Shown here: piece by piece, positions 57,764 through 60,922 of the stretch
Layout: every line of letters starts with the position of its first letter
How positions within the stretch are numbered: position 1 is the stretch's first letter
From: an uncultured Altererythrobacter sp.
Lineage (GTDB): Bacteria; Pseudomonadota; Alphaproteobacteria; Sphingomonadales; Sphingomonadaceae
DNA: 64,000 nt
NCBI GenBank assembly: GCA_913056125.1
Contig: CAJXNC010000003.1
Span: 186,001 to 250,000 of the forward strand
Direction: 5' to 3'
The notes under the pieces: model-generated
What the model saw: the letters and a program-made list of their open reading frames with translations, nothing else
What the model was told of the DNA's origin: nothing
The model's database searches: none
Program-made: the position numbers and the translations under genes

Positions 57764-60700
57764 ATGATTGCCATGTTTGGACGGATTGCCGTTGCGACCT
57801 TCGCTGTGCTTGCGCCGGGGGCGAGTGCAAGCGCTTCCACTCGCTTCGCCGTCGCCACACCCGAGATCATCGAGATCAAGCACCTCGCCGCGACGCTGGA
57901 CACTTTCTGGGTGCTGGTCGCTGCGACGCTGGTTCTGATGATGCAGATCGGTTTCATGCTGCTCGAAGCCGGGTCGGTGCGCACCAAGAATGCGATCTCG
58001 GTCGCCCAGAAGAACTTGCTGGACTTTGCCTTTGCGACGCTCGCTTTCGGCCTGATCGGTTTCGGCATCGCCTTTGGACCCGCGCTTGGGGCACTGCCGT
58101 TCGGGACAGATTCGAGCATGTTCTTGCTCAAGGGCATTTCAGGGGAGCATGCCGCCTTCTTCATATTCCAGGTGATGTTCTGCGGCACGGCTGCAACGAT
58201 CATCTCCGGCGCGGTGGCAGAGCGCATGCGTTTGCGTGCCTATGTGCTGATCTGCGTCATCATGGCGGCGCTGATCTATCCCATGTTCACGCACTGGGCA
58301 TGGGGTCGGGCGCTACAACCATCCGAAAGTGCGTTCCTTGCAAATGCTGGCTTTGTCGATTTTGCCGGGTCTACGGTAGTGCACGCCACTGGCGGCTGGT
58401 TCGCGCTCGCGGCCTGTCTCGTGCTGGGAGCCCGCAAGGGACGCTTCTCGGATGGCCCGCCCATGCGCATCGGCGGACACAGCGCAGTGCTCTCCTCCGC
58501 CGGCGCGCTGTTCCTGTTTGTCGGCTGGATCGGTTTCAACGGCGGGTCGACGCTCGCTGCATCCTCTGCGGTTCCCCCGATCATTCTCAACACGGTCATT
58601 GCCGGTTCCGCAGGCGGCGTTGTCGGCTACGGCCTGATGTGGTTCGGCGGCGCCATGCTGCCCGAAAGGGCGGTGAACGGCATGGTCGGCGGCCTTGTTG
58701 CCATCACCGCGGGTTGCCACCTCGTCGATCCGGGCGGTGCGCTGATCCTCGGCGCGGCCGGAGGGCTTTGCGCCAATGGCGCCAACCACCTGCTCGAAAC
58801 ACGGTTGCGCATTGACGATGCCGTTGGTGCTGTCGGGGCGCATGGTGTTGCCGGCGTGGTAGGCACGCTTGGCCTGGCCCTGCTGGCACCGGTCGAATTG
58901 CTGCCTGCCGGATCGCGCATGGACCAGTTCCTCGTCCAGGCGATGGGCAGCGGGATCAATTTCGTCTGGGCGTTCGGCGTCGGGCTGGTCTTCATCATCG
59001 CATTGCGGAAGTTTATCTATCTACGAATTTCCCCGGAGGAAGAAGCTGCCGGTCTCAACGCCACCGAACATGGTGCTCGGCTGGGGACCGACCACATCCA
59101 GGCAGCACTACAGACGCTGGTCCACTCCGAACCAGGTTCGCGCAAGCGGATCGATGTCGAGGCGGGTGACGAGAACGAACACCTGACCACGACGCTCAAC
59201 GATTTGATGGACAAGCTCCAGCATGCCGAGGCCGAACGTTTCACCAAGGCCGAAGCTGCGGGAGCAGGCGAGGATGCACAGCGCCTGGCCGCTTTCGGCG
59301 AGATCGCTTCGGAATCCATCTTCCTGATCCATGATGGCAAGATTCGCAGCGCCAATGCCGCAGCCGCCACGCTGTTTGCGACCACCGTCGATGCCCTGAT
59401 CGACAAGCGTCCCGAGGATCTCATGCGCGAAGACCTGCGGCAGGAGATGATCGGCTGGCTGGAATCGGGAGACGATGCCGTCGAGCAGGCGGTCGTCGTC
59501 GATATGCAGGAAAAGCAGGTACCCGTGGAACTGCGTTTCCGGCAGATGGACCTGAACGGTCACGACGTGATGGTGCTGCGCATGACCGATCTCAGTGAGC
59601 GTGAGGAAGCGCGCAAGCGCATCTACCACCTTGCCTTGCACGACACGCTGACGGACCTGCCCAATCGCGAATTGTTCAACCAGCGCCTGCATGAGGCATT
59701 GGCCAAGCAGCGCGAAGGCGCATTAACCGCGTTGCTGATCATCGACCTCGATCGCTTCAAGGACGTCAACGACCTGCATGGCCATCAGTCGGGCGACACT
59801 TTGCTTGCGGCTACAGCCGAGCGCCTGCTCAGCAATGTTCGTGGCTGCGATACGGTGGCCCGCCTTGGCGGTGACGAATTCGCCATCATCTACACCAATA
59901 TCGCCTTTCCCAACCAGGCGCTGGACCTTGCCTATCGTATCCTGCAGTCGATCTCGGCGCCGCTGACCTTGCCGACGGGGACGACGATCCATCCGCGTAC
60001 AAGTGTTGGTGTGGCAGTATCCCCGCTCGATGCCGAAGAGGCACAGGCGCTTATCTGCAATGCGGATTTGGCGCTCTATTCGGTCAAGAACCGCGGGCGG
60101 AACGGCTATTCCCGTTACAAGCCCGAGATGGGCCGTGTGCTGCGCCGACGGCAAGAGCTCGAAGAAGACCTGTCATTCGCGATCGAGCGGGACGAGCTGG
60201 AGCTCCTCTACCAGCCGCGCATCGACCTCAAGACCGGCGCCATTGCCAGTTTCGAGGCACTGATCCGCTGGCAGCGCGGAGACAAGCTGGTCAAGCCGGA
60301 AGACTTCATTGGCATTGCCGAGGATTCCGGTCTCGTCATCCCGATCGGAACGTGGGTGATCGAGGAGGCCTGCCGTGCAGTCACACGCGACCTTGGAGGC
60401 AAGGCCGTCAGCGTCAATATCAGCGTGCGCCAGTTCCAGGATCCCTCGCTCATAGACACGATTGCCGCGGCGCTCGAAGCGAACAGGCTTCACCCCTCTC
60501 AGCTCGAGCTCGAGATCACCGAAAGCGTGCTGATCGAGGACGATCAGCGCGCTTCCAACACGCTGAGCCAATTGCGTGCGCTGGGAGTGCGCATGGCGCT
60601 GGATGACTTTGGAACGGGCTATTCCTCGCTCAGCTACCTTACGCGCTTCAAGTTCGACACGATCAAGATCGATCGCAGCTTCATCCAGTCCGAGGATGAG

Positions 60701-60922
60701 CGGACCTGGCATGTCATTCGCTCCGTGCTGGGCATGGCCAGGGGGCTGGGTACTTCAGTAGTTGCCGAAGGCGTGGAGACGGCAGAACAGCTCGACCGGC
60801 TGGCGCAGGAAGGCTGCAACGAAATCCAGGGATTCTTCGTCGCCCATCCGCTGCCTGCCAAGGACGCACTGCAGAGGCTGAGCGGCGCACGCATCCTCGA
60901 GAAGGACGTCCGCGCCGCCTGA
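57764..60922 (+). CDS. Ammonium transporter fused to PAS-GGDEF-EAL
   Basis: 1052 residues. After a signal-like N-terminus, an Amt/Rh domain of about 11 helices (residues about 40-410) keeps the key parts: Asp199 and His207 in DFAGSTVVHATGG, the second pore His360 in AHGVAGVVG, and the FNGGST gate region. Then a PAS domain (about 509-620), a GGDEF diguanylate cyclase with intact GGDEF (702-706) and an intact I-site RxxD (RGCD) five residues before it, and an EAL phosphodiesterase with EAL (831-833), ITESVL, DDFGTGYSSL and EGVE. All the elements of both enzymes appear functional. The obvious model is an ammonium-responsive c-di-GMP enzyme, or an Amt with its own c-di-GMP output. No glnK gene is nearby. 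Confidence 0.92.
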   Translation: MIAMFGRIAVATFAVLAPGASASASTRFAVATPEIIEIKHLAATLDTFWVLVAATLVLMMQIGFMLLEAGSVRTKNAISVAQKNLLDFAFATLAFGLIGFGIAFGPALGALPFGTDSSMFLLKGISGEHAAFFIFQVMFCGTAATIISGAVAERMRLRAYVLICVIMAALIYPMFTHWAWGRALQPSESAFLANAGFVDFAGSTVVHATGGWFALAACLVLGARKGRFSDGPPMRIGGHSAVLSSAGALFLFVGWIGFNGGSTLAASSAVPPIILNTVIAGSAGGVVGYGLMWFGGAMLPERAVNGMVGGLVAITAGCHLVDPGGALILGAAGGLCANGANHLLETRLRIDDAVGAVGAHGVAGVVGTLGLALLAPVELLPAGSRMDQFLVQAMGSGINFVWAFGVGLVFIIALRKFIYLRISPEEEAAGLNATEHGARLGTDHIQAALQTLVHSEPGSRKRIDVEAGDENEHLTTTLNDLMDKLQHAEAERFTKAEAAGAGEDAQRLAAFGEIASESIFLIHDGKIRSANAAAATLFATTVDALIDKRPEDLMREDLRQEMIGWLESGDDAVEQAVVVDMQEKQVPVELRFRQMDLNGHDVMVLRMTDLSEREEARKRIYHLALHDTLTDLPNRELFNQRLHEALAKQREGALTALLIIDLDRFKDVNDLHGHQSGDTLLAATAERLLSNVRGCDTVARLGGDEFAIIYTNIAFPNQALDLAYRILQSISAPLTLPTGTTIHPRTSVGVAVSPLDAEEAQALICNADLALYSVKNRGRNGYSRYKPEMGRVLRRRQELEEDLSFAIERDELELLYQPRIDLKTGAIASFEALIRWQRGDKLVKPEDFIGIAEDSGLVIPIGTWVIEEACRAVTRDLGGKAVSVNISVRQFQDPSLIDTIAAALEANRLHPSQLELEITESVLIEDDQRASNTLSQLRALGVRMALDDFGTGYSSLSYLTRFKFDTIKIDRSFIQSEDERTWHVIRSVLGMARGLGTSVVAEGVETAEQLDRLAQEGCNEIQGFFVAHPLPAKDALQRLSGARILEKDVRAA

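Follow-up and report, generated by a model that had tools for sequence, protein, structure and literature searches.

The window analysed here is a stretch of 64,000 nucleotides from an uncultured Altererythrobacter sp. (contig CAJXNC010000003.1 of assembly GCA_913056125.1, positions 186,001 to 250,000 of the forward strand), and the gene considered is a single open frame at positions 57764-60922 of its plus strand, which begins with ATG, ends with TGA and runs through 1052 codons with no internal stops. The initial annotation of this locus had placed an ammonium transporter (Amt), a PAS, a GGDEF and an EAL domain in one chain, and the open frame and the Pfam matches bear this out (Table 1), with a PAS_9 score of 27.2 bits (cut-off 27). 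Absent from that annotation were a HAMP-like domain at about residues 439-497 and a receptor-type ammonium site within the Amt domain. An AlphaFold2 model of the whole protein had a mean pLDDT of 86.9 and a pTM of 0.49, i.e. the domains are well predicted but their mutual arrangement is not.

Table 1. Features of the putative ammonium receptor gene, in positions of the window.
Feature	Position	Strand	Basis
Whole gene, Amt-HAMP-PAS-GGDEF-EAL protein, 1052 aa	57764..60922	+	single open frame, Pfam, AlphaFold2 model
Hydrophobic N-terminus, residues 1-25, possible signal peptide	57764..57838	+	suggested by eye from sequence; model confidence low there
Amt domain, residues 49-438, receptor type	57908..59077	+	Pfam Ammonium_transp, E 3.5e-97; PDB and fold matches
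Predicted intramembrane NH4+ site, helix 1-2 part: Q61, E68, N84, D87	57944..58024	+	aligned to Ks-Amt5 Q24, E31, N47, D50
Predicted NH4+ site, helix 4 part: T145, S148	58196..58207	+	aligned to Ks-Amt5 T109, T112
D199 and pore histidine H207	58358..58384	+	alignment
Pore histidine H360	58841..58843	+	alignment
HAMP-like linker, residues 439-497 (helices 443-454 and 472-497 with a connector between them)	59078..59254	+	homologous-linker alignment, profile matches, model helices
PAS domain, residues 517-612	59312..59599	+	Pfam PAS_9, 5e-6
GGDEF diguanylate cyclase domain, residues 624-780	59633..60103	+	Pfam, 8.1e-41
I-site RGCD, residues 693-696	59840..59851	+	RxxD motif
GGDEF motif, residues 702-706	59867..59881	+	alignment
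EAL phosphodiesterase domain, residues 801-1029	60164..60850	+	Pfam, 6.3e-71

Orthologues were found in five other genomes, with identities of 61.7-74.0% over ~1000 residues. Eight fusion Amts with their linkers were then aligned and used to scan the GTDB species genomes; 401 relatives resulted, and the 80 best-scoring ones were analysed for GGDEF and EAL residues (two of them duplicate orthologues among the five). At 78 of these 80 best-scoring loci there was a complete Amt-GGDEF-EAL frame of 1050-1169 codons, and the other two run off their contig; the genera in their titles were Novosphingobium, Rhizobium, Neorhizobium, Ciceribacter, Roseibium, Stappia, Cohaesibacter, Jiella, Henriciella and others. 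Within the genus, full-length matches were present in at least 2 of the 37 genomes searched (this genome and G020). The family sample had the Amt-GGDEF-EAL arrangement in at least 6 of 397 genomes (G000, G325, G355, G222, G415 and G082, with G355 and G222 assigned by full-length alignment only) and a fusion of Amt to a methyl-accepting chemotaxis protein (MCP) in one further genome, G127. In the phylum sample, drawn from genomes at least 90% complete, the arrangement occurred in at least 17 of 397 genomes, i.e. this one and 16 loci, supported by Pfam for 11 of the 16 and by aligned motifs for all of them. The suggestion that Amt is coupled to histidine kinases or GGDEF in a few proteins was too low, since fusions proved commoner in both the GTDB and the phylum searches. 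That assembly or annotation had joined two genes at about residues 410-500, which the initial annotation had named as a refuting outcome, is hardly credible: we found nothing in favour of it, and ruled out such an artefact on the basis of the full-length relatives in other genomes just described.

The Amt-GGDEF-EAL architecture is widespread yet patchy. None of eight neighbouring genes of the window was matched in the available flanks of 16 relatives (tblastn, E 1e-8), so that genomic context gave no clue, and none of the 5000 plasmid records listed contains 80% of the query at a single site. The patchy spread and the unshared neighbours fit either transfer or frequent loss. In every domain pN was smaller than pS (four pairwise comparisons, with synonymous sites near saturation), and PAS was the least conserved among the five domains compared, with a median identity of 24%.

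The best sequence matches of the Amt domain in the PDB were the sensor Ks-Amt5 of Kuenenia stuttgartiensis (6eu6, 295 bits) and the receptor Sd-Amt1 of Shewanella denitrificans (8qj3/8qpf, 283 bits), whereas transporter Amts reached at most 158 bits (A. fulgidus Amt1 158, E. coli AmtB no more than 123). Structure comparison of the model likewise put receptor Amts at the head of the Amt fold matches, with a TMt of 0.95 and a root-mean-square deviation of 1.6 for 6eu6 ('Sensor Amt Protein') and a TMt of 0.94 for 8qj3/8qj4 (the OFF- and ON-states of 'Receptor Sd-Amt1'). E. coli AmtB has the Amt fold and the pore histidine pair in common with this protein (TMt ~0.9), but it is a transporter that works with a separate PII protein, GlnK, whereas here Amt and a cytoplasmic signalling output lie in one chain. 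Judged by its sequence, the Amt domain is of receptor type.

This assignment is sharpened by the residues of a predicted ammonium site. Ks-Amt5 is described as binding two NH4+ within the membrane through Q24, E31, N47, D50, T51, T109 and T112, and assimilatory Amts are said to be without this intramembrane site (PMC5764959). The equivalents in the present protein are Q61, E68, N84, D87, F88, T145 and S148, of which five of seven are identical; the substitutions are S148 for T112 and F88 for T51, the latter also a phenylalanine in Sd-Amt1. In the first alignment, D87 and T145 were present in 86/86 fusion Amt rows (84 distinct) and Q61 in 85/86, whereas all three are missing from each of 26 ordinary Amts; E68 and N84 discriminate less well, since 23 of these 26 also have them. 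A search of the phylum sample gave 30 loci, of which the 27 above 222 bits have Q61 without exception and D87 and T145 in 26 cases each, and the three lowest-scoring have none of these residues (24 of the 27 were new: L160 is this gene, L177 is the G127 fusion and L162 repeats L152).

The genome itself (3.01 Mb in 19 contigs) provides a comparison, as it holds three other Amts, none of which has Q61, D87 or T145. Two of them lie on contig C11 in a tandem PII-Amt-PII-Amt array (C11:97381-101004), i.e. two glnK-amtB pairs, which is the separate operon that the initial annotation had proposed looking for; the other is on contig C2. The second C11 Amt keeps E68 and N84 but lacks Q61, D87 and T145, a set of site residues intermediate between those of AmtB and those of the receptor Amts. 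The genome has four PII matches, of which two pair with an amt on C11; none is on the contig of the fusion gene and no PII gene was found next to it.

Between the Amt domain and PAS, residues 439-497 form a linker that we compared by aligning 22 fusion linkers with different outputs. Pfam HAMP matches were obtained in 12 of the 22 (E up to 1, the best being 1.1e-8), and the profile of the alignment matched two PDB entries, a histidine-kinase construct (9trk, 1.4e-6), whose repeats we take to be HAMP domains, and Sd-Amt1 (8.6e-6). Among the full-length fusions, 5 of the 21 scanned had HAMP at the linker, all below the curated cut-off (L217 0.00014, L190 0.0017, L070 0.069, L199 0.079 and L205 0.17). 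In the alignment columns E41 is nearly invariant and N50 invariant, and the AlphaFold2 model shows, at moderate confidence, two helices (443-454 and 472-497) joined by a connector. The linker thus has a helix-connector-helix form with a conserved glutamate and asparagine in the second helix, presumably the hallmark of HAMP, and we regard it as a divergent HAMP-like segment. HAMP is the usual relay of bacterial receptors.

Both enzyme domains appear equipped for catalysis. The initial annotation had described an intact GGDEF motif with an RxxD inhibitory site (I-site) five residues before it and an EAL domain with its catalytic motifs, and these signatures held up: R693xxD696 precedes GGDEF 702-706 by five residues, the GG[DE]EF motif is accompanied by its metal and substrate residues, and the EAL motif is accompanied by all nine of the positions tested (E831, N885, E917, E920, D947, D948, K968, E1002 and Q1022), to which we attribute catalytic roles. 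Across 83 distinct full-length rows (85 minus two duplicates), D704, E705 and F706 of the GGDEF motif, D661, D663, N669 and the nine EAL positions are invariant, and two rows have AGDEF in place of GGDEF. In the phylum set the tested EAL residues are kept in 15 of 16 loci, the exception, L193, having H and K at two positions; the EAL motif itself varies in its second and third letters. Since both active sites are invariant, both the cyclase and the phosphodiesterase activity seem to be under selection. RxxD occurs in 25/85 rows (23/83 distinct), and I-site feedback as a family-wide control was rejected for this reason.

The net direction of cyclic di-GMP (c-di-GMP) turnover is not readable from the sequence. 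The protein could be a net phosphodiesterase only, in which GGDEF binds GTP and merely regulates EAL, an arrangement that would be compatible with a receptor role. The nearest solved GGDEF-EAL tandems are PA0575 (5m3c), MorA (4rnh) and PA0861 (5xgb) of Pseudomonas aeruginosa, and a number of these tandem proteins work chiefly as phosphodiesterases; moreover, RxxD is missing in 60 of the 83 relatives. This has to be set against the invariance of D661, D663, N669, D704, E705 and the nine EAL positions in 83/83 rows and against the retention of the I-site in the protein itself, and we consider a phosphodiesterase-only enzyme a tenable but minority possibility.

Taken together, the architecture, the site residues, the intact active sites and the HAMP-like linker found in the sequence make it probable that the protein is a membrane ammonium receptor controlling c-di-GMP, with binding, relay, enzyme activity and direction being the parts that we infer. 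In the mechanism we propose, NH4+ would be selected at the outer vestibule and then held in the intramembrane site (Q61, E68, N84, D87, T145 and S148), its binding would displace the final helix together with the C-terminal tail, and this movement would reach the cytoplasmic PAS-GGDEF-EAL part through the HAMP-like segment. In the cytoplasmic part GGDEF would make c-di-GMP and EAL destroy it, with the balance set by the state of the receptor. As to direction, it is purely a guess that the phosphodiesterase predominates without ammonium and that ammonium favours the cyclase. The initial annotation had suggested that either passage or occupancy of ammonium could set the c-di-GMP level. The receptor-type site and the HAMP-like linker strengthen the view that ammonium acts on c-di-GMP through this protein. 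Of the two routes, occupancy is favoured by the best studied relative, Ks-Amt5, which is described as binding NH4+ without efficient transport (PMC5764959); passage is less supported. The separate glnK-amtB pairs, which are available for uptake, also count in favour of a receptor.

Several observations weigh against the receptor interpretation. The Pfam HAMP model (PF00672) found no match in the protein's own linker, either in a scan of residues 439-497 or in its row of the linker alignment, and Ks-Amt5 is reported to be without HAMP (PMC5764959). The patterns of the GTDB scan included Q61, E68 and K83, so that the conservation of Q61 and E68 was partly selected; D87 and T145 were outside these patterns and hence free of that selection. 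The exception among the 27 phylum loci is a fusion (L164, the same gene as L193) in which N and A take the place of D87 and T145. Seven stand-alone Amts (L210-L216) carry the same site with no fused output, and therefore the site marks a type of Amt rather than the fusion itself. The receptor Amts were not recovered as a single clade in a quickly built tree that contained several long branches, the separating branch having a support of 0. Finally, we found no binding, transport or enzyme assay of this protein in the openly licensed literature searched.

The pore residues also bear on this question. The initial annotation had noted that pore histidines 207 and 360 and Asp199 are kept, and the alignment agrees, adding the phenylalanine gates F139/F258 and the pair W180/S262. 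Nearly every row, whether of a fusion or of an ordinary Amt, has the tested transporter pore residues, which therefore do not distinguish a sensor from a transporter. The pore of Ks-Amt5 is described as blocked by the bulky residues F27, Y30 and F34 (PMC5764959); only one of the three is kept here (F64 for F27, with L67 and S71 replacing Y30 and F34), and the same columns read F, F and N in Sd-Amt1. Pore closure by bulky residues, described for Ks-Amt5, is not a demonstrated criterion of receptor Amts. With one of three blocking residues and all of the tested pore residues present, the domain may still transport, which again speaks against a pure receptor. The protein might therefore be a transceptor, in which the Amt domain would continue to import ammonium and the enzymes would be set by the transport cycle instead of by a statically occupied site; a similar protein, AmtE, was called 'likely a transceptor' by its authors (PMC8467165). 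However, the same pore residues are present in Ks-Amt5, which translocates inefficiently (PMC5764959), 26/26 ordinary Amts lack the carboxylate D87 of the membrane site, and the genome already contains two glnK-amtB pairs as well as a further amt. We judge a transceptor to be rather unlikely.

Relatives of the Amt domain carry exchangeable outputs. The same type of Amt is followed by PAS-GGDEF-EAL, by GGDEF-EAL with no PAS match (L209), by a histidine kinase (L205 and L217) or by an MCP signalling domain (L070:2895-5189 minus strand, L192:2401-4638 plus strand and L194:1685-3928 minus strand), and the last three are candidate ammonium chemoreceptors; on the tree the MCP label requires two changes. 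It is plausible, if by a narrow balance, that sensor Amts form a general bacterial module for ammonium reception, in which a Q-E-N-D-T intramembrane site and a HAMP relay can be combined with any of several outputs (a dual cyclase/phosphodiesterase, a cyclase, a histidine kinase or a chemoreceptor); the present protein would be the dual-enzyme version. As a rule, HAMP and GGDEF domains function as dimers. As Amts are described as strictly trimeric (PMC5764959), a three-fold sensor would then drive paired HAMP and enzyme domains, and the relay would have to solve a 3-to-2 symmetry mismatch.

Other arrangements were seen among the relatives. Locus L199 has a 710-aa Amt-PAS-PAS frame (L199:2446-4578, minus strand) without GGDEF or EAL, although both are present in L198, the row closest to it on the tree. 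At L071 a second GGDEF-EAL-like gene of 691 aa (L071:1748-3823, plus strand) lies directly upstream of that genome's Amt-PAS-GGDEF-EAL gene. At three of the seven stand-alone loci a frame of 217-221 aa overlaps the end of the receptor-type amt (L210:3968-4624 plus, L211:3745-4398 plus and L212:3529-4194 minus strand; the amt of L214 and L216 was hidden by the frame filter, and L213 and L215 were left out). These frames are related, with 30-31% identity to the first, gave no Pfam match and, for the L211 frame, no match among plasmids; the protein is possibly a signalling partner.

The immediate neighbours of the fusion gene are a peptide deformylase gene, a SnoaL-like gene (Pfam) and a 581-aa gene that presumably encodes formate-tetrahydrofolate ligase. 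A sigma-70 scan upstream of the gene found nothing, and patterns of the nitrogen-regulated sigma-54 promoter with up to two mismatches occurred 78 times in the whole window against 77.7 expected, with none in the 700 bases upstream. The genome has 12 EAL matches and 12 PilZ matches (11 of the PilZ over the cut-off), and the one flagellin match is below its cut-off. Of the link to motility and biofilm that had been proposed, the motility half is therefore weak, and effects on biofilm or surface polymers are more likely than effects on swimming.

Three kinds of Amt fusion are already known, namely Amt-histidine kinase (Ks-Amt5, 2018), Amt-GGDEF (Sd-Amt1, 2024) and Amt-GGDEF/EAL (AmtE, PMC8467165). 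AmtE of Azoarcus olearius BH72, which we compared by description only, likewise joins Amt to GGDEF/EAL, and the present protein, in which Amt precedes both enzyme domains, is of the AmtE kind. In the A. olearius genome, too, there is an amtB, which is co-transcribed with glnK; the description of AmtE, in the part available, does not mention PAS, HAMP or enzyme activity (PMC8467165). It was induced 36-fold under N2-fixing conditions (PMC8467165), which fits a role in nitrogen status. Sd-Amt1 (8qj3, 8qj4 and 8qpf, released 2024) combines a receptor-type Amt and a GGDEF match, agrees with this protein in all seven site columns and has a linker that matches the HAMP-like profile; it differs in its chain of 644-661 aa, of which only Amt (~40% identical) and GGDEF align, with no EAL. 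No paper on Sd-Amt1 was found in the openly licensed literature searched. Ks-Amt5 differs in its histidine kinase output and is described as having neither HAMP nor PAS (PMC5764959). PA0575, MorA and PA0861 share the tandem GGDEF-EAL, with PAS also in 5xgb and 43% identity to this protein in the GGDEF-EAL part for PA0575, but have no Amt in their solved parts. Amt fusions are reportedly also discussed by Tremblay and Hallenbeck (2009). In the openly licensed literature searched, we found no account of a HAMP relay, of the D87/T145 signature across outputs or of the breadth of the family.

If this interpretation is true, external ammonium would feed the c-di-GMP network directly in many proteobacteria, rhizobia included, by a route that bypasses uptake, glutamine and PII. 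The residue signature would offer a simple rule for separating likely ammonium receptors from transporters in genomes, and a HAMP relay would tie Amt receptors to a well-studied signalling adaptor. The placing of a three-fold sensor on usually paired outputs would make the question of transmission testable, and the Amt-chemoreceptor fusions of the same family would be candidate ammonium chemoreceptors.

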